Below are positions 263-63,770 of a DNA stretch of 64,000 nt, piece after piece. Where the stretch lies: NCBI GenBank assembly GCA_947462335.1, contig OX381718.1, forward strand, positions 45,194,511 through 45,258,510, read 5' to 3'. The translations under genes were made by a program, and so were the position numbers. The stretch's first letter is position 1. Every line of letters starts with the position of its first letter. The notes below the pieces were generated by a model. The model was not told the origin of the DNA. It searched no databases and saw only the letters and a list, made by a program, of their open reading frames with translations. This DNA comes from Harmothoe impar. Its lineage: Eukaryota; Annelida; Polychaeta; Phyllodocida; Polynoidae.

Positions 263-2962
<2,700 letters not shown>

Positions 2963-24416: not shown

Positions 24417-26716
24417 TGAATTCCTTGGGTCCATGTTAGGGGGTAAGGAAATGTGTGTTGCTAGGCAGATAAACAATTACAATAGATGTTGCTAGGCAAC
24501 CAGCTGGATTAGCAACAAACAGATAGAACCATTGAATTCCTTGGGTCCATATTAGGGGGGTAGGTTTGATTATAATAAACCTTAGGACCATGGAAATGTA
24601 CGTTGCTAGGCAGATAAACAATAAGAATAGCCGTTGCTAGGCAACCAGCTGGATTAGCAACAAACCAATGGAACCATTGAATTCCTTCGGTCCATATTAG
24701 GGGGGTAGGTATGATTATAATCAACCTTAGGACCATGGAAATGTGTGTTGCTAGGCAGATAAACAAACAGAATAGCCGTTGCTAGGCAACCAGCTGTATT
24801 AGCAACAAACCGATAGAACCATTGAAGTGCCCCTACATGGGTCCCCACAGTATTGGCCGTGTCGCCGTGTCGATTTTTAGCCAGGGGGGCGTGTCGCCGT
24901 GTCGATTTTTATATATATAGAATATACTAAGCCCTTATAAAAATGCCTGTGTCCGTCGATTTTTAAAAGTGCCGTGTCGCCCGTGTCGGATTTTAAAAGG
25001 GCCGTGTCGCCGTGTCGCACGTGTCGAATTTTACCCCATGTAGAGGCACATTGAATTTCTTGGGTCCATATTAGGGGGGTAGGTATGATTATAATCAACT
25101 TCAGGACCATGGCAATGTGTGTTGCTAGGCAGATAAACAATTGGAATAGCCGTTGCTAGGCAACCAGCTGTATTAGCAACAAACCGACAGAACCATTGAA
25201 TTCCTTGCGTACATACATACATATTAGGGGGGGTAGGTATGATTATAATCAATTTCAGGACCATGGAAATGTGTGCTGCTAGGCAGATAAACAATTAGAA
25301 TAGCCGTTGCTAGGCAACCAGCTGGATTAGCCACAAACTAATAGAACCATTGAATTCCTTGGGTCCATATTAGGGGGGTAGGTTTGATTATAATCAACCT
25401 TAGGACCATGGAAATGTGTGTTGCTAGGCAGATAAACAATAAGAATAGCCGTTGCTAGGCAACCAGCTGTATAAGCAAAGAACCAATAGAACCATTGAAT
25501 TCCTTGCGTCCATATTAGGGGGGGTAGGTATGATTATAATCAACTTCAGGACCATGGAAATGTGTGTTGCTAGGCAGATAAATAATTAGAATAGCCGTTG
25601 CTAGGCAACCAGTTGGATTAGCAACAAACTAATAGAACCATTGAATTCCTTGGGTCCATATTAGGGGGGGCTAGGTTTGATTGTAATCAACCTTAGGACC
25701 ATGGAAATGTGTGTTGCTAGGCAGATAAACAATTAGAATAGCCGTTGCTAGGCAACCAGCTGGATTAGCCACAAACTAATAGAACCATTGAATTCCTTGG
25801 GTCCATATTAGGGGGGGCTAGGTTTGATTGTAATCAACCTTAGGACCATGGAAATGTGTGTTGCTAGGCAGATAAACAATTAGAATAGCCGTTGCTAGGC
25901 AACCAGCTGGATTAGCCACAAACTAATAGAACCATTGAATTCCTTGGGTCCATATTAGGGGGGTAGGTTTGATTATAATCAACCTTAGGACCATGGAAAT
26001 GTGTGTTGCTAGGCAGATAAACAATTAGAATAGCCGTTGCTAGGCAACCAGCTGTATTAGCAAAGAACCAATAGAACCATTGAATTCCTTGCGTCCATAT
26101 TAGGGGGGGTAGGTATGATTATAATCAACTTCAGGACCATGGAAATGTGTGTTGCTAGGCAGATAAACAATTAGAATAGCCGTTGCTAGGCAACCAGTTG
26201 GATTAGCAACAAACTAATAGAACCATTGAATTCCTTGGGTCCATATTAGGGGGGGCTAGGTTTGATTGTAATCAACCTTAGGACCATGGAAATGTGTGTT
26301 GCTAGGCAGATAAACAATTAGAATAGCCGTTGGTAGGCAACCAGCTGTATTAGCAAAGAACCGATAGAACCATTGAATTCCTTGCGTCCATATTAGGGGG
26401 GGGTAGGTATGATTATAATCAACTTCAGGACCATGGAAATGTGTGTTGCTAGGCAGATAAACAATTAGAATAGCCGTTGCTAGGCAACCAGCTGGATTAG
26501 CAACAAACTAATGGAACCATTGAATTCCTTCGGTCCATATTAGGGGGGTAAGGTATGATTATAATCAACCTTAGGGCCATGGAAATGTGTGTTGCTAGGC
26601 AGATACACAATTAGAATAGCCGTTGCTAGGCAACCAGCTGGATTAGCAACAAACCGAAAGAACCATTGAATTCCTTGGGTCCATATTAGGGAGGGTAGGT
26701 ATAATTATAATCAACC
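24417..26716. repeat. Tandem satellite, ~145-bp unit, about 15 units, each with an RFX X-box palindrome
   Basis: Successive starts of ATTGAATTCC fall at 24531, 24676, then 25195, about 25346, 25494, 25641, 25787, 25934, 26081, 26227, 26375, 26518 and 26665. One unit is split by a transposon (24827-25049). Each full unit has a G run of 5-8, ACCATGGAAATG, TTGCTAGGCAGATA and then GTTGCTAGGCAAC. The 13-mer GTTGCTAGGCAAC is perfect in 13 units and reads GTTGGTAGGCAAC in one. Variant unit types recur in the order C-A-B (25346-25787 and 25934-26375), a sign of higher-order duplication. There is no coding capacity. Confidence 0.93.
24827..25049. mobile_element. GTGCCTCTACATGGGT-ended TIR element, copy 3, inserted in satellite
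   Basis: Length 223 bp, the same as copy 1. The ends are GTGCCCCTACATGGGT and CCCATGTAGAGGCAC. It interrupts one unit of the 145-bp satellite. The intact neighbouring units show the empty site as one ATTGAA, and here ATTGAA appears on both sides, which proves a 6-bp target duplication. Confidence 0.92.
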
Positions 26717-26789
26717 TCAGGAACTATCAAAGGTTGATTTATATTATTGTTATCACATAGCATAAATTTGTGTTGTGACACCTTAATCC

Positions 26790-31872: not shown

Positions 31873-32179
31873 GAGTTTGGCATGTACGTTAACTGATCAA
31901 CTCTACTCTGTGTTAAATTTCTAGTCAGGCCATTGATAATAGGCCTATACATGTATCATCATTCAGTGGACCCAACAACAATATAACGACACAATATATG
32001 TATTAAAGTTGATCGGAGTATCAGTTTTGACTCACCAGAGCCATTGTTTAGCAGCCTTTTGTAATCAAACGTAAAGCACCTCAAAATTTGTTTTGATTTG
32101 GCAAGAACTTCGGGCAGGAAGGTCAATTAGCATCCTGACATCCATATACTGGGTAAAATGCAAAATACCCAACGGTGGA

Positions 32180-35100
32180 CTAGTCCGACTCAATGTCAAT
32201 AGTAATATCCTCCTCATCAGGCATGCTTGCTTCCATGATGTCATTGACGTATGAAACGTCACGAATGCCGTCCACTTCCGGTTGGTAGTGATTGACGTCC
32301 GCCGGTGACGTAGCATGGCACAGGAAGTGACGTCTGAGGTCGCAGTTGCGCCGGAAGAACTTCCTGCAGACTGAACAGGTAAAGGGCCTGACGTCATCGA
32401 CGTCAGCCTTGACGTCAGCGACGTCAGTAGCTGTGGCGCTGACGTCATGTGTTGTGTTGAGGGCGTCATTATGTGACGTAACGTCGTTGTGTGGCGCGAC
32501 GTCGTTGTGTGACGCGGCGTCGTTGTGTGACGTGACGTCGTTGTGTGACGTGACGCCGTTGTGTGGCGTGACGTCGTTGTGTGACGTGACGCCGTTGTGT
32601 GGCGTGACGTCGTTGTGTGACGTGACGTCGTTGTGTGACGTCATGTGCGTCTTGAGATGGGCGCGGGTAGTGAAGGTGGCGTCACATCGCGGGCAGGACA
32701 CTGGGCTATCCTGGAAATTAAAAGAGAGAAAAATCATTCATGAATTTATTAAAGGCATGCTAACAGCTACATATTTGGTATAGTAAGGACATTCTGTTTA
32801 ACACAAACACTATGTATAATAATTACATCAAATTATATAATGTCTAAGCAGTATGTGAAAAGTTAGGCTCCCCACAAGGGTTCCTTTCTTACATGAGGGT
32901 ATATTTGTTAAATGATTGAGGCTACTCTTGTCAGAATATAAATAAAGGCTACTTTTGATTATATACGGTAGATAGTTTTTGTCAGAGCACTTAGACAGTA
33001 GTTGACCTTACCTGAGCATGTAGCGTCTTGTGCACGGCCAGGGTGCGGGACTGACAGAACCCCTTCCCGCACTCCCCGCACGTAAACGGCTTCTCCTTAG
33101 AGTGGATGTATCTGGGGAAATAAAAGAGGAACATATAAATATAAAGTAAGTTATTTGTACATTAAGAATGGTCAAGTATCTTGGGTTATGTAAAAGTTCC
33201 TTGGACGCGAATATCCATAACAATCATGAGGCAGCGAGACTTGAGCACTGCGTTTGAGCTTAAAATTATAACATCGTAGCAAAGTTCGATATATGTGTGT
33301 GTGTGTGGGGGGGGGGGGGGTAAGGGGGCTCAATATTGCAGATACAGATTATACTTAGATATGCCTTCCCTGTTCCTGTTCCACTAACATGTTCTATGGT
33401 GGGTTTTATATCATGTGGCGTATATGTGCAATAATGTAAGCATCATACAACATGGCACAACGTATAAAGGTAGGCCCATTGCGGCACCCACCCTAACACA
33501 GCAGGGGTAGACACTAGCGCTGGCCCGGGAGCCAATGGGCCGTAATTTTGGGTCCGGGCCCGCAGTTTTCTTCAGAATAACCTTCCCCTGGGCCCGGGTG
33601 GCCCACAGGAAATTTTGCAAAATATTTTGAAGGAATAAACTTGATGAGTATAGTCATGTAATATGTCGTTGGAAAGAGAAAAATGCGAGCAATTAAGGCA
33701 CTTTGGTCTCATTTTGACAGAGATAAATCAGGAATATATATGATTTTCTCGTTGAAAAAAAGTAAAATGTGGTCTCTGGCCCACAGCTGAAAATCTAGGC
33801 CCATAGATTTTTGGAGCTACGGGCCCGGGTGGCCCATAGCTTATAAAGTCAGTGTCTTCCCCTGCACAGTATCCAACAAGGTAATTTGATGGTCAGACAG
33901 AATTTTCTTTATGGCCAGAGATGGGGGGGGGGGGGGCTCTCAACATCATATGATATGTGGCCACTGACAGGGGGAAGGCTATTTTACTGAGTGAGGCTCA
34001 TCTAGATCTACTACCGGTACATGTACTCCTCCTTTCTCTTAACAATAGTACCCTGGTAACAAAAAGTATCTCAGCTAAATACCCGTTTAATAGTAAAAAT
34101 GGTCCACTCTCCAGACGTAACATCATTTGCCCCAGAAGAAGGTTATCAGCAGATAATACTCGTGTTATAATATCTGCTTGGAGAGTGTTCAGCCGTCTGG
34201 AGTTACAGTTTCTGGGCGATAATTGGTGAAATCAGACTCACATGGAAACAGCTGGATCTGTTTATCGGCAGCCCTATTGTTCTGGCCTAATTGTTGCTCG
34301 TGACCAGCAGTAGTCTGGTACGAGTCATAATGGGAAGCTCATTTTTCCCCGAATAGAGGGGGGGGGGGGTGTGTTTATAGTCTCTGAGACCACGCAAGGC
34401 TTATTAATACAAGTAGGCCTACATATGTATGACTGCATTTTTCAGTCTTATCTTTTAGATCATTGTTTGTGTGTGTGTTGCAAGTGGGGGGGGGGGGGGG
34501 GGGGAGCTAAATCTGGGCAAATTCTTGAAAATGACAAATCCATAAAGCCCTCTCCCCCCGGTCTAATACAGAATGACTCCTTTCTAACCCTAGGTCCCTC
34601 TAAGAGGCCCCCAATCACTGGGATAGCTTCCAATCAGAGGCGGAATCGTGAGGACGCCTTTATGGTGCCAAGAGTGTCTTTTTTATAAAGGCAAGTCTGA
34701 TGTAGATTGTTCGGCTCACATTGCCATATGGGGCATCTTAACCCTTTAAAGACCGAAAGTCACTAAGAGATGACATAATTGTCGTCATGATGCACCATTG
34801 CGGCCTGACGTTTTCCCGGCAAGTAACTCAGTACTCACCAAGGCTGCATTGCCGGGCAGCATTGGAATCATGCCGACCCTTTGGGAATGTCTGAACCCCG
34901 TGATGCATTAATGCAGCTCTGGCGAGTTCATGCATCATGGAAACCAAGGGCACAATGCATTAAGGCATTATGCCCTCCTTAAATGGTTAAGTAAGCCATC
35001 TGCCTACAAAGAGCTGCTCATATCTGCTCAGACTTGCTCAGGACGTTGATACAGATTGTGCCGCCGTCTTACAGTCTGGGTGGAGCTCAGTGTCATATAT

Positions 35101-38100
35101 ATTAACCCTTAAAAGGCCACCTACCCATTTACTGTATACCCTTTGTCTGTATGGTAATAAGCCTGCTGTAATAGATGAATGTAGCCCTACCGAGTGGGTC
35201 GCCAGGGTTTCATTCAGGCATCATGACGACTCTATTATAGTATATGGTTGACACACTCGACTCAAAGGGTTCAGAGTTGGTTATAAAATTCAATTTCAAC
35301 ACCGATCCTGGAAGTCATAAAGAAGACCATGAATGCTCCCCAGATGTGGTTGGGCATACATGTTTCTATAATATATTAATAATTATTATGATAATCTGTA
35401 TGTGTGTGTACCCGGAAACATGTAGCCTAAAGTGTCTGGTTCACAGCTGGTTTGGCCGTCTGGTCGTTTGAGTGATCAATGCAGTATCTGGGCACGTGTA
35501 CCGGTATACACATGATTTCTTGTTATGATATTTAAAAAATTATTATGCAGGATTAGACGAAAACGTCATATTTATTCCCCACTACACATCTTGGGTGGGC
35601 GACTTGTGTGACATTTTGTATCCAGCCCTGTCCAATATCCAGTAACAATGTTGACACACTTTTAATAGGGGATGGGTCTACATGTCTGTCTTGAAACTTG
35701 ATTTAGACAGACACACACACCATGTCTAGACCAGAACTGCCTTCATTCCTACAACTGATTAGGAAGGGCTACTAGATTGACCTGTATTTCTCTGTCATAA
35801 TGAAAAAGTTCCCATGTAACAACTTTTTTTGCCAAATAAAATGTTTCAACAGCAACTGCAAATACTAGAAATACATTGTATATGACCACAGCCATAACAA
35901 AACCGGGCTGTCGGCTACCGTTATTAGCTATCATCATTTGGCATTATTTGGATTGGTTTTCACACATAAATTGTTGACTGTTACATGTATCACGGATGAG
36001 CGTTTTTTTTCTGATGTTGATTTTGCTCGTTATCGTCTGCTACATTAATCGTGCTCCCAGTTTATGCAACATGACTAACAAAACGCATCTGGCTACCTCG
36101 GGGAGCCACCCCTCATTTCACTTGTCCTCGACCCTTCATATCATGCCAGTTTGTCATTTCCTTTCCTCCGTCATTTTGTTTCCCCTTTTCCTTCTCCCCT
36201 CTTCCTGTTCCTCCCTCTCCTTCCCTTGGCATTGAGACTGTACATCTCTTGATATATCAGATCGCCAGTGCGGGATATAGGATCGGTCTAACGTCGGGGT
36301 GCGGCTCATACGCTAGTTTTTATGAGTATACCTCAGAACTGAATCAACAATTTTCAGACCCTCTCAGAGGCTTATATGATTTGCAAAAATTAGGGGTGCG
36401 GCAAATAGGCAAGTTAGGCTTAAACGCGAGGTTTTACGGTATATCCTATACCTAGAAACGCTAGAAACCCTCTCTGTCATATCGCACATACACTATCTAC
36501 CCCCCCCCCCTACCCACACACACTCTGAAGTCTCGCGTCGCGTGACCGTGACCGCGCAGAACGTGACAACAGGCGAGAATTGACACCCTTCCCGACGTCA
36601 GATTTATGACGTCACAGTTCGTTCCAACATGGTGCCCCCCGGCGTCAGGACCCGGGCAAAAAAGGTTCAAGAACAAAGAGGAGGGGGTTAACCCTCCAAG
36701 GACGGCATGCTGCTTTAGTGCGCTAAGCCATTTGTCATGGACGCAGCCCTGCATGCGAGTATCTCACCAGGGCTGCATTCAAGCATCATGCCGACCCCCA
36801 GAGATGATACCCCCAAAAGGGTCGGCATGGTGCATGAATGCAGCTTACCGAACTGAAATGATGCATAATTACAACAGATGGTGTAACACATTAAACCATT
36901 ATGCGGCCCTGAAAGGGTTAAAACTACTTTTTAACCCTTTACAAGTTTGCCACACAATTAGCCATGCGCCACGACTACTGAAATGGGGCTGTATCAGTTC
37001 TACCTCCCGGTATGGCGGCTTTTTGTGGTCTCATTCCGTATTCTGACAATATTAACTGCTCCACATTCCCGAGGCTAGACTTCCCGACTCTGATCTGGAA
37101 ATTCTATGCAGACAGAGATAGGCTCTACTAAATCTTGTCATTATATCAATTATAGTAGAAATAAGAATTAAGCAGTTTGAATTAAATTACCATTTCCTTT
37201 CGAATGGCTACATCGCAGCTATGTAAATTGAAATGGATGGCATTGATGTTGAAAAAAGGAAACCTGCTACATTATGATATCCTACTTTCAGGTATAGAGT
37301 GCACTTCACATCACCAGGAAGTGTAATTGCCTTTACATATTCATGGTGTATTGAAATATCAATTAAACATGTATCCTTGCACAGGAACAAAATACAATCT
37401 CAACGAGGTATAGAGGTATATATTATTATGAATAGGGAAATTACCCTTTTCCGATAATATAGAAAGAGTTGGTTCGTATTCTGGGCATGTATCTCTCTCA
37501 TTTACAAAATCATATTTTTGCTGTGTTTTTGCCCCCTTCCCCCCAACTAAAGATATCAATCATGCGTTTAACTATCATTTGACTATTGCAGAAATGTTGA
37601 GTTTGATCCAAATAAAGGAGTCATTTCATGATCATATGTAAAATCCTGATTTTTCAAAATCATTTCAGGATTACATTGATCATTGAAATGTAGTCCTTGG
37701 TTGAGTTGTCTGAAATGTCATGTAAAGCAAAGTATGGAGATGCCACGAATTCCCTAAAATGATTTCATTTCAACCGTCTTTTTGTCAGATCCGTTTTTAT
37801 GATCAACATATAAATTTAATGCAGGACAGGGAGCATAGTACTTTTGCATATCAACACTGGGCCTTAAACATTATTGTGTTCTGGTGACCCAACCTACCCT
37901 CTAAAACCATTTTGGTGATTAAAAAAATAAATTTTAGGTTAAAAATTATTACTGAAACATTTGTACTAGATTTACCAACTCAGACTTAAAGTAAGGTAAA
38001 AATAGCATTGACCTAATTACCCTGTTTTCTGGTCATGATACCTGAACACAATAATATTTTCTAGGCCCTAAGATTATTATATTCATGCCTACCTGTGATC

Positions 38101-41100
38101 CCTGAGGTGGTCCTGGCGTCTGAAGGCTTTACCACAGATGTCACAGGTGTAGGGTCGTTCGTCTGTGTGTGTACGCTCGTGGATCAGCAAGTTGTAAGAC
38201 TTGGTGAACTGACGGCCACAGAACCGACAGATGTACTGCTTCTTCTTTCTGTAATTAGTATGAACACATGCTGATGGTGAAAAGAAAGATGGAATAAAAA
38301 AAGGAAAGTCATGAAGTAGCTGGCACTTTTCCTGTTATGTTGTCATATTATTCTGCAGTGAGATCTACACGCTCTATATAGTGAGATGGCAAACAATAGC
38401 TTCAAATATAGGATGTCCTCATTATGATGTCTATGTATCTAACCAAGATGTACTAACATCCCCAAAGGTTGTTGAGAGGAATTGCTGTCTCATCAGCTCA
38501 AAATTAGCCTGACAGTGTTTAATAAATCATTTAGTGATCAGATGATCTGAATGATTGGACTGCCTCGAAAAATGTCAGAGAATGATATAATGTCTCTGAA
38601 AATATATCAACTGTTTAAAACTATGGATTTATTTTATCATGGCATGAAAATGATCGAGAGAGATACTGAACGGTCCCAAATTAATGCTATTTGTGGGCTT
38701 ATTTTTCAAAACCAGAACCTGGACAAATTTCAGTGATTAAGACCCACTGAATAGCTAAATATCAGAGAAAGAATTACCAAGTCTCAGTGTGAACATGTTA
38801 ACAATAGTGCTGAATATTCCTGTTGTTTAAGCAATGTTGTGGTCTCTGTGTGTTCAGGAAACACCGCCTCTACATAGAGCCAATCCTTAGGTCCTGGAGT
38901 ACAAGGACATACATCTAGAGCCACAGGTCCCTTTTTTAGTTTATATTTTTGTCATACATCTAGGAGGCATGACAGAGGGGCGCACCAATGAGGGTGCAGG
39001 CTGAGGCATGTTTTGATCTCCCAGAGTGTACTCACTGACACCCATGTGTCAGTGTCAAACACCGACCAGCTTGTGCCACCGACATTCTGCAGCAGAGGGA
39101 GTGGTAAGAGGTCCTCTCTAAGGGATTGACCAATTCTTAGAGTACACAGAGAGAAGAAACCGAGTCACAAGGGGAGTCCATGCTATAAAAAGAGAGCCAG
39201 GGTCTCTTTGGCTCACTTTTCACACTGTTTGACTCCCCCTTCTAAAGGCCTTGACTCCTTTTCAATTAGATCAAACAGAGTCCATGTCAGCTGAGGTGAG
39301 TCAATGGTTACCTGGACTCCCTAAGGGAGTCACAGAGGTGAGCATACAAACCGGAAATAGGAAACCCACTAGGTGACACTACTGTACATTGACTGTAATG
39401 CCATCTAGCATGTATACACCCAATATATAGACACCCAATTTGTAGCAACATGAGAAAGTTAAATCCCAAAAGCTCATATGTTACTTTGTATATTAACTAA
39501 TGTGCTCTGAGGGATCTTATTGAGATCCCTCCTCCTTGTGAGGCATTGCACCAACATAATGTAGAAACATCAGCTAGGGAGACAGCTATTGAAATGGTTA
39601 TATAGAGGGTTAGGGGGTAGGAATTACCTATAAATTATGACTCTCTATTCCAAAGGAGCCATCCTGTGCCTAGACTCCCTTTCTAAAGGGAGTTGCAGCA
39701 TAGACCTGGACTCTGTCTAGCGGGGAGTCATAAAAGGGAGTCATTTTGGAGGCAAAACCTGGGCTCTCTTAGGAGAGTCACATAACTCCCTTTTAAGGGA
39801 GTCAGGTTCATCAAGAGAGTCAGAAAGATAGTCAGAAAAGGGAGTCATTCTCGAGGCAAGGTTGGACTCCCTTTTGACTCGGTTTCTTCTCTCTGTGTAG
39901 GGTGGGAGAGGGGGGGGGTTGATGGGTTTTCGCGCTGAGCGTGCACAATATTACCCCCCCACCCCCGCTCATGCTTGGGTCGAAATCGGTGCACGCACGG
40001 GCCCTTGGAGCATGGTTACATGCAGGCTTTATTGCTCAAAATAGGAGAAATTTCTTTGATCCCCATTTTTTGCAACGCCCCAGGTCAAGGGGTCAAATTC
40101 TTTTTTTACCCCCCCCCTCCCAAAATTATTCACCATGGTAAAATATGACTGTATCCATACGGAGAGATAATTGAGTTGACATCAATTGTGGCGCCTTTCC
40201 TCGCTACAGAATGATTCCCAGGATCTGGTGTCTGAATCCTACACATAACACTCATCCCTATTACACCACAACTAAGGGGTATTTATGAAAGGGACAGTGA
40301 TCCAGAGTTGTCTTGTATTGTCATTGCTATCACCTTACACATGTCAACATTAGGGAAGCTATGCCGACAGTCGATGTGCATGGGGTAAGTGATATGTATC
40401 CCCAATGAGATCACACATATACAAATAAGAGTCAATTGTAGTTGGAAGCCCAGTTTTTGGTTCCAGGATGACTTCCATTCTGACTCAGTATACAAAGGGA
40501 GTCCAACCATAGTGACTCCTGATATACTATTAAGAAGAACCACTGTGAGGGGGATGGGTCCTTTCCTCTGGGTATAGAGTTACAACCTGTGCACCGACAA
40601 TTATCCTAGATGATGTGTTTAAGTTGTGTTTCTATGTTATGTTTTTAATATGTAAAAAAGGGCCATATGCCATAGGAATGTATAACACATCAGAGGGAGA
40701 GTCCCCTTCTATACGAGGGATATCGTTTTGGAAAGACAGTAGCCTATGGGTTTTTGTATCTTCCCGTTCCAATAAACAAAGCTGGAAAAATCTCTAAATT
40801 TTAGATACATGTATGTATTTGTATTATAGTCATGACTGTTAAAATTTGGAAGTTGACCCTGCAATCCACAAGTCACCATTATTTCAAGAGACTCAACTCA
40901 TAGCATTTGTTAAGGACATGGTTTAAAATAGATAAATACATGTACCGGTATAATGCAGTACATACCTAGGCACTGAGCGGGGTTTCCTTCTGTCCGTCAC
41001 GGACTCTGCCCGTCCTTGCAACAGGGCAAAGGGCGAGAAGAGCGAGTTGAACCTGCAATGTGAAAACCAGGCAATCATTATTTTTTTCAAAAATTAGGGT

Positions 41101-42868
41101 AAAAATGTCCAGGGTCAGCACTGATTCGCCAGGCATAGGGTCGGATATTAAATTGAATAAGTTATTTCTAGTCCACTGTTTCACTGAGAGTAAACGATTT
41201 AATTTGACAAAAAGGGCAATATTCGTACATTTGTACGCATAATTATTTTACATTAAGAAATTTGCATTCCCCACCTCAAAACCCAGTTCTATGACACAAG
41301 CGGTAAAGAGAAACCAGTTTATCTTTTTTTGAGGGAAACTTAGAATATGAGTCATTATAGAGTTATTATAGAGTCCTGCTAATGTTAAGGAATCACATTA
41401 GAATGTGCCTCTACATGGGCATTCTTATCCCATACAATTTGTTACATTCCACTTGATTTATCCATGTCCGTCGATTTTTAAAAGGGCCGTGTCGCACGTG
41501 TCGGATTTTATAACCCCCGTGTCGCCGTGTCGCACGTGTCGATTTTACCCATGTAGAGGCAATCCTGGGGAGAGTTCCCTTTTAATAGTGACCAAGTCAC
41601 AATGATTCTACTTCGTTTCTTTGTGATATTATGAAGAGGATCAACACTATGATCTATAATGTTCAATAAACTTTTTTAACTTCAAACTTGTGCGCTCACC
41701 TGTAGGCGTTGATGTGGGAGGCCAGGTTGCTGGTGATGTAGGCGTCGTGGTTCTCGTGGTGACCGGTGGGGGCGCGGCGGTCGTCGTGTTCGTCCTTCTC
41801 TATGGCGGACTCGGCCAGACGGGCAAAGTCAAAACGAGGCCGCCGCCTCTTCAGTAGGCACAGCACATTGTCTGTAAGCACAATTTCAAATTCAATTTTT
41901 AAAAAAGTATTTGCTTAAAATCAACAAAATATACAGTATGTTGAGAGGTTTTCCTTTACGTGTGTGTTCCTTTATAAAGTATGCCTATGATAATTAACCC
42001 CTCGACACGTCATTTCTTTACAAATAATGATATTTGAGCAAATAGGCAGCGCCAAGATACTGAGATATAGAGTCATCTCTACATTGGACATTGTGCAGGA
42101 AACATGCCCCAATCTGCAGTTTTAATTGGCCACACTTAATATATTATATAAAGTGACATCTGACCTTTATAGAAGCTACCAATAGACATTTGTGGGGAGT
42201 CTGAAGCCAGACTGACTGCTACATTATCTAATCCCACAAACTAACCATGGGTTGCATCTAAAGGGTTACATAAAATACATGTACATGTACACACATACAC
42301 ACTCACCTGATTCATTTGGGCTCCCCTGAGGTTCCCCTTGGAGACTGACTGGTAGGCAGGAGAACTCTCTGGGGGCTGACCACACATACCTGCCGCTGCC
42401 TGCAGTGGTCTGACACTGCATGGCAGGCTCAGGACGAGCACTCCACCCCCTGGTCTCCCCCACCTGTCCATGTTTACCTGTATCAGGACCCCCAAGGTGG
42501 GGGATATCCAGGCTGGGTTGGGGCCTGGAGACTAGGCCTATTTTAGCAGCATGGGTCATGGTAGGGTACATGGGTACAGGACGCATGATGCTGTGCCCAT
42601 CTCTGCTGTAGTTAGGGGGACAAGGTCTGTAAGTAGTATAAGGGTCATTGGTGGGAGCCTCCAAAGGGCCAGATCGAGGGGCGGCAGCTCCAAACGTCCC
42701 CATCGTGACGTCACAGCGTCCTTGTTGCGCATTGTTGTTGTTGCCATAGTAACTATGGATGGACGCTGCTGTGGTCCCGTGATGTGTGTAACCTGGGTGA
42801 CATTGTGACGTGCTATTTGTGGGACATTGTGACGTAGGGTTTGTGTGACATAACACTGCGGCCGCCAT
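32180..42868 (-). CDS. osr: Odd-skipped-related zinc-finger transcription factor, paralog C (complete, repeat-expanded)
   Basis: Six coding exons on the minus strand: 42868-42307, 41871-41700, 41052-40966, 38248-38093, 33111-33012, 32710-32180, predicted 535 residues. Intron positions and phases match paralog B. The long first exon (187 codons) is Pro/Gly/Asn/Thr-rich and begins MAAAVLCH. The second exon holds [11 protein letters not shown], the block shared with B. Fingers 1-3 ([15 protein letters not shown].., CDICGKAF.., [21 protein letters not shown]) are nearly invariant. Finger 4 ([21 protein letters not shown]) and finger 5 ([21 protein letters not shown]) are separated by about 85 residues instead of 7. 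The extra stretch contains ten TSHNDV-type hexapeptides at residues 383-442 and an Asp/Val-rich segment. The C-terminus is acidic ([11 protein letters not shown]). Introns are long, and one (33112-38092) contains two transposon-like elements. The ATG at 42868 lies 23 bp inside an exon with acceptor AG at 42893-42892. Confidence 0.93.
32462..32641 (-). repeat. 18-bp coding minisatellite in paralog C
   Basis: Ten 18-bp units encode TSHNDV with variants TPHNGV, ASHNDV and APHNDV. The frame is kept throughout. The first unit overlaps the last zinc ligand of finger 4 (HMTSH). On the plus strand the unit is based on GTGTGACGTGACGTCGTT. Confidence 0.93.
33501..33865. mobile_element. GGCCCGGG-rich TIR element in paralog C intron
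   Basis: The left end GCAGGGGTAGACACT mirrors the right AGTGTCTTCCCCTGC. The interior has GGGCCCGGGTGGCCCA repeats at both sides. Confidence 0.6.
34738..34990. repeat. TTAACCCTTTAAGG family copy
   Basis: TTAACCCTTTAAAGACCG is at the left and GCCCTCCTTAAATGGTTAA at the right, with CATGATGCACCATTGCGGCC inside. Confidence 0.65.
35102..35273. repeat. TTAACCCTTTAAGG family, decayed copy
   Basis: It begins TTAACCCTTAAAAGGCCACC and keeps GAATGTAGCCCTACCGAGTG and TTTCATTCAGGCATCATGAC. The right end is CTCAAAGGGTT. Confidence 0.5.
36258..36444. mobile_element. Fragment of the ATACCGT / GCGGCTTATA family
   Basis: It has AGATCGCCAGTGCGG at the left and ACGCGAGGTTTTACGGTAT at the right, like the right part of 54911-55446. 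The left terminus is absent. Confidence 0.55.
36688..36921. repeat. TTAACCCTTTAAGG family copy
   Basis: TTAACCCTCCAAGGACGGCA is at the left and ATGCGGCCCTGAAAGGGTTA at the right. CAGCCCTGCATGCGAG and CTCACCAGGGCTGCATTC form an internal inverted pair. Confidence 0.7.
37859..38068. mobile_element. ATTATTGTGTTC TIR element next to finger 1-2 exon of paralog C
   Basis: The left GGGCCTTAAACATTATTGTG and right complement GGGCCTAGAAAATATTATTG match, and both continue into TGTTC.GGT. It ends 24 bp from the donor side of the 156-bp exon. It is related to 43390-43640. Confidence 0.6.
39143..39899. mobile_element. GGGAGTC-rich palindromic element, copy 2
   Basis: Length 757 bp. The left end TACACAGAGAGAAGAAACCG (then AGTCA) mirrors the right TGACTCGGTTTCTTCTCTCT (then GTGTA). 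GGGAGTCA and GACTCCCTTT blocks are dense at both ends. It lies in an intron of paralog C. Confidence 0.75.
41405..41562. mobile_element. GTGCCTCTACATGGGT-ended TIR element, copy 4, internally deleted
   Basis: About 158 bp. It keeps the left end GTGCCTCTACATGGG, the GTGTCGCACGTGTCG interior and a right end CCCATGTAGAGGCA. It lacks part of the interior and the last base or two. No clean target duplication is seen. It lies in an intron of paralog C. Confidence 0.75.
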
Positions 42869-43054: not shown

Positions 43055-43150
43055 TAGGCATTGTTCACAAAATGACGTCACTAATAGCAAGCGCTTAAAA
43101 TTAACAAGGATTTCTTCTTGGACTAATGACATGACTTGTGAACGTTCCCT
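43055..43150. mobile_element. Short element with GTTCACAAAATGACGTCA end, copy 1
   Basis: TTGTTCACAAAATGACGTCA at 43061 mirrors GACATGACTTGTGAACGTTC at the right. Confidence 0.45.
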
Positions 43151-60841: not shown

Positions 60842-63770
60842 TTACGCATTGACATAAATCTGCGGATCACCATTAACATACAGTTCATCATCCTCTGCAG
60901 TGTCCCTAGCAAACTGGAAACTGGTGAGCCTCCCTTCACTACCCGTCATAGGCAGATAGCCAGGCGGTGAGAGCCGATGCTGCATCATCTTCTGCATATC
61001 TGGAGCGGAGGGCGATCTGGAGCCCTTGGTAAAAGGCACATTGCCATAAACATGGTCACTTGTGACCTTCGGGCTACGAGGACTACCTATTTTGGGCGAT
61101 GAAGGGAAGTTTACCCCGCGAGCCATGTTTCGCTCTTCGTAGACTGGCGAGTAGATGTCCTGGCCGGGGCTTGGTACGGCTGGAGCTCGCCCCCTCTGTC
61201 GGCTGTGAGTCTGTTGAGCATCAGCCTGATGTTTAGGAGAAGTAGCCTTTGCCTTAGCCTCTTTCTGTAAAGAAAATTAAGTTTGAACATGTTTATTAAC
61301 GTGAAATTGTGTGGTATTTTGTTAAATATAAACATAATGAATAATGTATATTGTTTTTGACCAGGCTTGAGGTGCACATCTAATCCGCTACTCAGAATAA
61401 TATGTAATCCACATACATACAAGAGGCTCTGGCATGTCTAAATCTTGGGTCTTACTCCCATGTGCAGGGAGCACCACTGCCAACTCTATAGCTCAGACAC
61501 TGTGCATCACACTGGCACACTGCCACTACCCGTGAGGAAGCTATAAATAGAACTGCAGGGCCGTGTGGATGGCAGTCACCACCCCAGCAGCAGTGAGAAG
61601 CAGACGACTTACCCACCCACCATCCCAGATTCAACAATAGATACATCACAACGCGAGGATTATTCTACATATTATTTTAACATGAGCTCTTATTGAAGCT
61701 GTATTGTGGCAATAATAAAATTTTAAAAGCTAATCCTCTTCACCTTATTCCTGGCATAATTATTGCCGAATAGAACATCTGCAAATTATATAATATTTAG
61801 AGATAGATTGCTTGAAATTTTCACATTTGAGTTTTCCCTTTCTGAAAAACAATTTCATGAGGAACATGTATGAGGTCACTACCCTAAAGCACCAGGCACA
61901 TTTCTGAAATTCCAATATCGACCGCCATCGACCTGTCCTTTGAGACACTTAAAATTTAGCCACCTATACCAAACTTTAGCTTATGACATGCAGAAAAGAT
62001 ATAGGTCTGATCCCAAAACGCCAGCCTAGATTTTGCACAATGGTTTTGTAAAATGAGGCCTAAGCAGAATATGATAGGGCTGTTTCACCTCCATAGACCT
62101 ACACTGTGTATATGGCGTAGATGCCATAGTAATTATCTGTCGCTGGTGCCTTAGAGTATTACTGTCCTTGGCTTATGAATCGTATACAGCGACTCACTTG
62201 TACCATATCCAGTACATAGCTGTGTATATAAACAGTTCATATATTTAACGACAGAGGGCAGCACTGTACCACTATCTGACTATCGGACCACACAGTATTA
62301 TATTGATGTTGATACTTAGGCTTGGTTTAGCATTATGGTTGCCAATTTCGGTTTTACCATTTGAATATATATAAAATGTGATGAATCTCACCATTGGTTT
62401 AGCATAAGGAACCCCAGGGTAGTCATACTCATCAGCATCACTGCCAGACTCATTACTGTTATCATCACCATCATCATCGTTATTATCATCATCATCCATC
62501 GGAGGACTTGGGTGGTTAGAGCTTCTCGGAGACACACTCATATCATGCGGTACATTGACATAAATCGAGTCAGTTCGAGCCACTTCCTCAGGATCGGAGC
62601 TCTTCTGGACTTCGTTGAAAGTGAACCTTTGTCGTGCAGGGGGTGTTTTGGCTGGTAGACGAGGGGAATGTTGGCCTTCCTTGGGTACATTAACATAGAT
62701 GGTGTCAGTGGTGGGGGGTGTATTGACATTACTGGTGCTGGTACTGCAGGGGAGATCTTCATTTGGGAGCACGATCAGGTAAGTATCCTCTTCAGGCTGC
62801 TCGCCGGCCTCTTTCCCCTCCTCCACACTCTGAAAGTAAGAAGATTATCCCTGAGTTAATTTGAAAGTTAGAATATTATCCCTGAGTTATTCTGAAAGTT
62901 GGAAGTTATCCCTGAGTTATTCTGAAAGTTAGAATATTATCCCTGAGTGATGATATTATCTCTTTAAAATTTTAATACAAAGCATATCACCAGCTAGATT
63001 TTTGGGGGGGGGGGTTTGGATGTATAACTTTATTTATGGTAAACGTGTCAAATTAACAAAGAGTTTAGTGTATATACTGTAATTGTAATATCTCCCTGGG
63101 GAAATTCTTTAGCCACCCCAAATGGAGCTTCACATAACTGAATAGAACGTTAATCGCCATGATGCCTGAATGCAGCTATGGCGATTAACTCACCAGTGCT
63201 GCACTGGGCATTTACTAAAGGCTGCCTTGGTCATAATGAAAAATTTCCGTAATTAACTTTACCAGCTTGTACCAGTGGAACACAACCCCATATACATAAG
63301 GGAGTGGTCATTTTTTAACAACAGCTAGGAGGGGGTCGGTGGATTTTCACGCAAGTGGGTCGAAATCTTTTTAGACCCCCCCCCTATAGCTATAGTAGCG
63401 CGCTGGCCTTTTCACTAAAAAGGGGTTTCCCCCCTCAAGAAGGGTCCAAATTTTCTTGGTCCCACCCTTTCAAGGGGTCCACATTTTGTTGGTCCCCCCA
63501 AAATCCATCCCCCCCGTTGTTTAAAATGACCACTCCTTAACATACATGCCTACTTACCTGTCTTGGGGTACATTTGATGGGCTTCACATTCTTAGATATC
63601 TTGAGCTTCCGCTTTCGGCGTTTTACACAAGCACAGATGAGGATGGTGACCACTATTAGAACCACAAGTCCAGCTACCCCAGCAATGATTGCTATGGTCA
63701 ATATGGACCATTTCTTCTCGCACTCCCCATCTTCACAGTCAGATGCAGTCGTCGTCGGAGGCAGAGGAGG
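60842..63770 (-). CDS. Single-pass membrane receptor/adaptor with five cytoplasmic YxN motifs (3' part only)
   Basis: Three exons, 63770-63558, 62829-62392 and 61264-60842, are all phase 0 with GT-AG borders and give 357 C-terminal residues. Residues 1-20 are a Pro/Thr stalk with two Cys. Residues about 21-46 (WSILTIAIIAGVAGLVVLIV and following) are a membrane helix, followed by a basic stop-transfer (KRRKRKLK). This predicts a type I topology with a 311-residue cytoplasmic tail. The tail has TIYVNVP (Tyr 116), SIYVNVP (161), VYGNVP (290), LYVNG (346) and IYVNA (354). It also has YLPM (Tyr 320, PI3K-SH2 type YxxM), QDIYSPVYEE, PxxP stretches and an Asp/Asn-rich run. Y-x-N is the known Grb2 SH2 ligand; YVNV is the Shc1 site. 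The ectodomain is encoded beyond the right edge, so ligand and family are unknown. Alternatives include a scavenger-type, Ig/FN3 or EGF receptor, or a LAT-like adaptor. Confidence 0.8.
63140..63235. repeat. TTAACCCTTTAAGG family, degenerate fragment
   Basis: CATGATGCCTGAATGCAGCT and GATTAACTCACCAGTGCTGC remain; both ends are lost. Confidence 0.4.
63297..63539. mobile_element. AGGGAGTGGTCATTTTTTAA-ended element in receptor intron
   Basis: The left end TAAGGGAGTGGTCATTTTTT mirrors the right end AAAATGACCACTCCTTA. The same TGGTC and GTCGAAAT interior blocks are present as at 17771. It ends 19 bp from the donor side of the transmembrane exon. Confidence 0.7.

Follow-up and report, generated by a model that had tools for sequence, protein, structure and literature searches.

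Zinc fingers 4 and 5 of odd-skipped-type proteins are normally joined by a 7-residue linker. In a 64,000-nucleotide stretch of the Harmothoe impar genome (the window), one of three odd-skipped-type genes carries an 18-bp tandem repeat at just this junction. The locus raises the question of whether the repeat is a genuine coding insertion that splits the zinc-finger array and, if so, how it arose, which fingers it detaches and whether the resulting spacer serves the protein.

Paralog C and its relatives in the window

The three genes lie on both strands, A on the plus strand and B and C on the minus strand (Table 1); the 5´ part of A beyond its finger exons (292-2962) is not in view within the window. 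The reading frame of paralog C opens with an ATG at 42868 and closes with a stop at 32180; its five exons, with GT-AG junctions, encode 506 amino acids (1521 nt) in frame with no internal stops. The start codon, and with it the start of the first exon, is the least certain piece of this model. The Cys/His ligands of all five C2H2 fingers are intact, in a layout that we take to be that of Bowl, Sob and the long form of OSR2, and exon 2 encodes a motif resembling the FDF (FDF..LAES) motif found upstream of the fingers in Osr proteins.

Table 1 Positions of the features of paralog C and of the paralog A and B fingers in the window
Feature	Position	Strand	Remarks
Paralog C exon 1 (probable)	42307..42868	-	splices in frame with the rest; donor CAG/GTGAGT
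Paralog C exon 2, Osr-type motif	41700..41871	-	P0016 and P0028 have a similar motif
Paralog C exon 3, zinc fingers 1-2	38093..38248	-	
Paralog C exon 4, zinc finger 3	33012..33111	-	
Paralog C last exon: finger 4, spacer, finger 5, acidic tail, stop	32180..32710	-	531 bp
Zinc finger 4 of C	32633..32695	-	exon passes the Pfam zf-C2H2 cut-off
Ten 18-bp units, TSHNDV type	32462..32641	-	first nine bases belong to finger 4
Asp/Val-rich stretch, 24 residues	32390..32461	-	contains GACGTC five times; units may have decayed here
RPFT, what is left of the original 7-residue linker	32378..32389	-	alignment with A and B
Zinc finger 5 of C	32315..32377	-	AF2 pLDDT mostly about 91-92
Paralog B fingers 1-5	6562-6407, 5869-5770, 5269-4901	-	7-residue linker; comparison
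Paralog A fingers 1-5	292-447, 903-1002, 2567-2962	+	7-residue linker; comparison

A protein search with spliced C returned 2420 matches that passed, and it marks fingers 1-3 as Osr type: among the 120 matches listed, many are named Osr, Bowl or Sob, these coming from insects, vertebrates and others; the listed matches mostly share 72-80% identity across 43-45% of the query, except for two at 41% and one at 60%. The best score for paralog B among its best 120 proteins was that of Tubulanus P0016, and a search with the first four fingers of C found a solved relative, 2ee8 (Protein odd-skipped-related 2). Like the family as a whole (Drosophila Odd, Sob and Bowl; vertebrate OSR1 and OSR2), C combines five C2H2 fingers of family sequence with the upstream motif and with 7-residue linkers between fingers 1-2, 2-3 and 3-4. 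It differs from the family in an altered finger 4 helix and in the finger 4-5 linker, whose length of 7 residues is a regularity of the family and not a defining trait. We read paralog C as a duplicate of an odd-skipped-related (Osr/Bowl/Sob type) zinc-finger gene, one that has diverged but remains intact. Several Osr copies per genome are usual, with two in human, three in fly, two in worm and four in Daphnia according to PMC2889900.

Other features of the window were also recorded. In C, third-position GC is 0.81 in the finger 3 exon and 0.70 in the last exon (32180-33111), and the synonymous sites of finger 3 are saturated against A and B (pS 0.98 and 0.92), unlike those of the fingers 1-2 exon (0.26 and 0.32); between A and B the two values are alike (0.47, 0.45). 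One way to explain this would be a local change of composition in C. A 17-base word, GGAAGTGACGTCTGAGG, occurs exactly in the last exon of A (2866-2882, coding strand) and in finger 5 of C (32323-32339, opposite strand); none of 2000 codon shuffles reaches 17 bases and one reaches 16. Tandem arrays of 145-147 bp lie between B and C (24447-26722). Open frames with several YVN motifs occupy 60842-62844 on the minus strand; they have no confident Pfam match and perhaps encode a receptor tail.

The coding minisatellite and the finger 4-5 spacer

The original prediction held that ten in-frame 18-bp units interrupt the last exon of C, and both repeat detection and direct reading of the units bear this out. 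Tandem repeats abound in the window (30 TRF rows, partly overlapping), and one row is an 18-bp array at 32464-32641 with 9.9 copies and 89% matches. The unit consensus, ACGTCACACAACGACGTC, translates in the gene frame on the minus strand as TSHNDV. Read from 32641 down to 32462, units 1, 2, 4 and 6 are TSHNDV, units 3 and 5 TPHNGV, units 7 and 10 TSHNDA, unit 8 ASHNDV and unit 9 APHNDV. Identity at a lag of 18 bases reaches 144/162 in the best 162-base stretch, compared with a maximum of 69 in 200 dinucleotide shuffles of the exon. Minisatellite units span roughly 10-100 bp, and the array consists of tandem units in an open frame with a unit length that is a multiple of three. Exon 1 of C contains another repeat (42799-42851, 24 bp x 2.2 copies), which likewise has ACGTCACA at its core.

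The spacer of about 85 residues that had been predicted in place of the usual linker was also found. The finger 4-5 linker measures 85 residues in C and 7 in both A and B. To these we can add 191 proteins fetched from the best-match lists of three protein searches: a finger 3-4-5 run was readable in 188, after P0005, P0106 and P0191 had been dropped from the count as lacking the finger pattern, and the linker is 7 residues long in all 188. In an alignment of the last exons of A, B and C, the extra residues of C fall inside the linker. The insert comprises 78 residues, or 13 x 18 bp (234 bp), and the linker ends left on either side of it, N-D-V and R-P-F-T, together make up the normal 7-residue linker. 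The array of C is thus confirmed as a genuine minisatellite in coding sequence, and it breaks a zinc-finger spacing that is otherwise invariant.

The extent of the detachment proved smaller than first proposed. The suggestion that fingers 4-5 are uncoupled from fingers 1-3 is not supported, since the finger 3-4 linker of C (AQDSPVS) still has 7 residues. Fingers 1-4 would therefore stay together, and we infer that finger 5 alone is detached, joined to the others through the 85-residue spacer.

Between the ten units and RPFT lies the Asp/Val-rich stretch, which may be an older, decayed array; its similarity to the unit is weak and is equalled by 33 of 1000 shuffles. A stretch that resembles the unit just as much (score 27, as for the Asp/Val stretch; 1/500 shuffles) is present in the last exon of A, where there is no array, so that such words exist outside the linker too. 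Elsewhere in C unit-likeness is ordinary (finger 5 and tail 96/500 shuffles, finger 4 128/500). The exact 21-base repeat word had no matches in viral contigs.

Origin of the array and alternative readings

The proposal that the array was seeded at the end of finger 4 gains support from both ends of the unit. The first nine bases of unit 1 encode finger 4's own Thr-Ser-His, so the unit corresponds to the junction itself, and paralog A encodes His-Ala-Asp-Val at the same spot (codons CAC GCC GAC GTC). From this the GACGTC half of the unit probably predates the array of C. Differences from unit 1 across units 1 to 10 number 0, 0, 2, 0, 2, 0, 1, 1, 3 and 3 of 18 bases, a weak polarity, and weak support for the seed, in that units 9 and 10, on the side of finger 5, have diverged furthest. 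The identity of units 1, 2, 4 and 6 and the recurrence of the pair 2-3 as 4-5 are as stepwise duplication gives.

A mechanism for this growth is suggested by the unit itself, which contains a quasi-palindromic inverted repeat (ACGTC-N7-GACGT). Predicted hairpins of the array are strong as RNA (z -5.55) and as DNA of the minus (z -3.69) and plus (z -5.46) strands, with 0/200 shuffles matching each, making hairpin-aided slippage a fair mechanism. Units 3 and 5 both carry a T to C and an A to G change on partner bases of the stem and probably derive from one event. By analogy with the template switching at inverted repeats in coding DNA described in PMC8604942, a switch between the inverted-repeat arms is a possible source of these paired changes, but covariation of the stem pairs is not significant in either of two tests (figures below).

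Constraint is uneven along C. In the fingers 1-2 exon, 48 of 51 residues match those of B with pN 0.025 against pS 0.32, which indicates purifying selection there. Finger 4 matches B at 11 of 21 residues and its helix is changed. Finger 5 matches at 16 of 21, with the whole helix RNCDLRR identical, and this conservation together with pN 0.25 against pS 0.91 argues that finger 5 is not drifting freely. By contrast with finger 5, the spacer appears unconstrained in sequence and the unit differences look neutral: there are seven variable unit positions, every one a transition, and four change the residue while three are silent, compared with 12:6 for all 18 possible transitions of the unit. AlphaFold2, given the last exon with A and B as the alignment (three sequences; mean pLDDT 60, pTM 0.23), assigns blocks of 78-93 to finger 4, 91-92 to finger 5 except for its end in a block of 58, and blocks of 43-50 to spacer residues 31-100. 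The low values hint at a disordered spacer, read with the reserve that so shallow an alignment imposes on confidence.

On balance we favour, with moderate confidence, a local slippage-type duplication at the linker of an intact, divergent duplicate, the repeat residues being unselected and the insertion tolerated. A segment of 18 bp, covering the last residues of finger 4 and the first of the linker (Thr-Ser-His followed by Asn-Asp-Val), would have been duplicated in tandem, most likely through slippage or unequal exchange aided by the quasi-palindrome, placing 13 unit-lengths (234 bp) between the NDV and RPFT of the original NDVRPFT linker. The protein would then consist of a block of fingers 1-4 and a finger 5 on an 85-residue disordered tether, no longer docking in register with finger 4. 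The repeat residues would be free of selection, and the insertion would have been tolerated because this copy had relaxed in its last exon.

The spacer could instead have been selected, with finger 5 acting as a tethered second head for a separate DNA site or partner and the number of units setting its reach. We consider this unlikely, as the unit residues vary about as expected in the absence of selection and a protein search with the last exon of C (1820 candidates) found no ortholog in which a kept length could be seen. The one match in that search put forward as an ortholog, P0191 (E 1e-9), was rejected as a many-finger protein lacking the array; it holds SHNDVRPFKC as an ordinary linker. 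Some weight nonetheless attaches to the contact helix of the detached finger 5, identical to that of B while that of finger 4 has changed, and to the reading frame kept across 13 unit lengths, though an 18-bp unit ensures the latter by itself. Because the spacer looks unconstrained while finger 5 does not, a functional tether keeps its share of probability, and drift in a divergent duplicate leads even though the finger 5 contact helix has been kept. Doubtful, and more so than simple selection for a spacer, is the idea of an evolvable dial, in which hairpin-prone units, seeded from the end of finger 4 itself, would vary in number within the species and so alter the reach of finger 5, with its preserved contact helix, from fingers 1-4.

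Three further readings deny the protein repeat a role or an existence. The exon may act as DNA or RNA, through a cluster of CRE (TGACGTCA) and ETS-CRE-like sites or through mRNA hairpins, the protein repeat being a by-product. With six motifs counted and each octamer scored as two half-sites, the last exons of A and C contain, once the units are removed, 21 TGACG/CGTCA half-sites against 7.6 expected (0/5000 synonymous codon shuffles), while CpG in these exons is not in excess (61 against 68.1). The last exon of A alone has 7 half-sites against 2.9 expected (57/5000) and that of B 0 against 1.1; the sequence CCGGAAGTGACGTC in A's last exon matches 14 of 16 bases of the ETS-CRE motif as given in PMC4555227 (for the motif see also PMC3464117). 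CpG observed/expected is 1.46 in the last exon of C against 0.51 for the window, and whole-exon RNA folding gives z -5.08. Yet the motif was chosen after inspection of the sequence, 8 of the 14 half-sites of C sit in the Asp/Val stretch, and TGACGTCA is over-represented elsewhere in the window as well (8 against 0.45 expected, both exons masked), one of these eight sites lying in exon 1 of C and another in an open frame that carries the FDF motif of B. A conserved RNA element under structure selection was rejected and is not claimed since, strong as the hairpins are, covariation of their pairs was not significant (358/500 shuffles; p about 0.2 in a second test). We therefore rate this reading very unlikely, and the exonic CRE cluster stands as a set of candidate sites, based on sequence enrichment. 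Separately, the TGACGTCA sites at 43073, 57491 and 57623 have in common, by eye, approximately GTTCACAAA(A)TGACGTCA, in one case inverted and with a poorer match, a shared context that hints at a dispersed repeat.

A shade less probable still is that no protein carries the repeat, either because splicing removes it or because C is silent. A CAG does overlap the Arg codon of RPFT, and the evidence for C is genomic. However, all 5´ splice sites in 32161-32760 score at most -1.2 bits on a textbook-type matrix, against 4.5-8.3 for the six donors in the finger exons of A, B and C. Splicing-out was rejected for lack of a plausible donor, and removal of the array by an intron, which would have undone the original prediction, is unlikely. 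Against silence of the gene stand its open frame across five exons and the constraint on fingers 1-2. Least probable, and barely to be entertained, is that the assembly is wrong about the array or about its length. Assemblies often give tandem arrays a false size and one assembly was examined, but units with distinct variants, all in frame, are not what a simple stutter error would give. The copy number could be off.

Known coding repeats and the significance of paralog C

In-frame coding repeats have precedents in regulatory proteins. The Thr-Gly repeat of the period gene is one and, like the array of C, may vary in length; it differs in lying outside any DNA-binding array. In PRDM9 the repeated unit is a whole finger, whereas in C it is six residues spanning a finger end and the linker, and it separates fingers. 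C shares with PRDM9 (PMC3890296, PMC6116924) a minisatellite in the coding exon of a zinc-finger gene. Coding minisatellites in zinc-finger genes are thus already known, and C is a fresh variant. Our literature search yielded nothing joining odd-skipped genes with a minisatellite and, judged from titles and the starts of abstracts, nothing on a long finger linker in the odd-skipped literature. The case is unusual, but most likely it arose through ordinary slippage at the site itself, in a duplicate undergoing divergence.

What sets the locus apart is a finger 4-5 linker grown twelve-fold with the fingers all intact and with two short-linker paralogs in the same window. C is a ready-made test of whether the fifth finger must sit in register, and equally of how coding repeats begin at a domain edge and come to be tolerated after gene duplication. 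If the array does act as a dial, two DNA-binding heads would be linked by a tether of variable length in a duplicate of a conserved developmental regulator.
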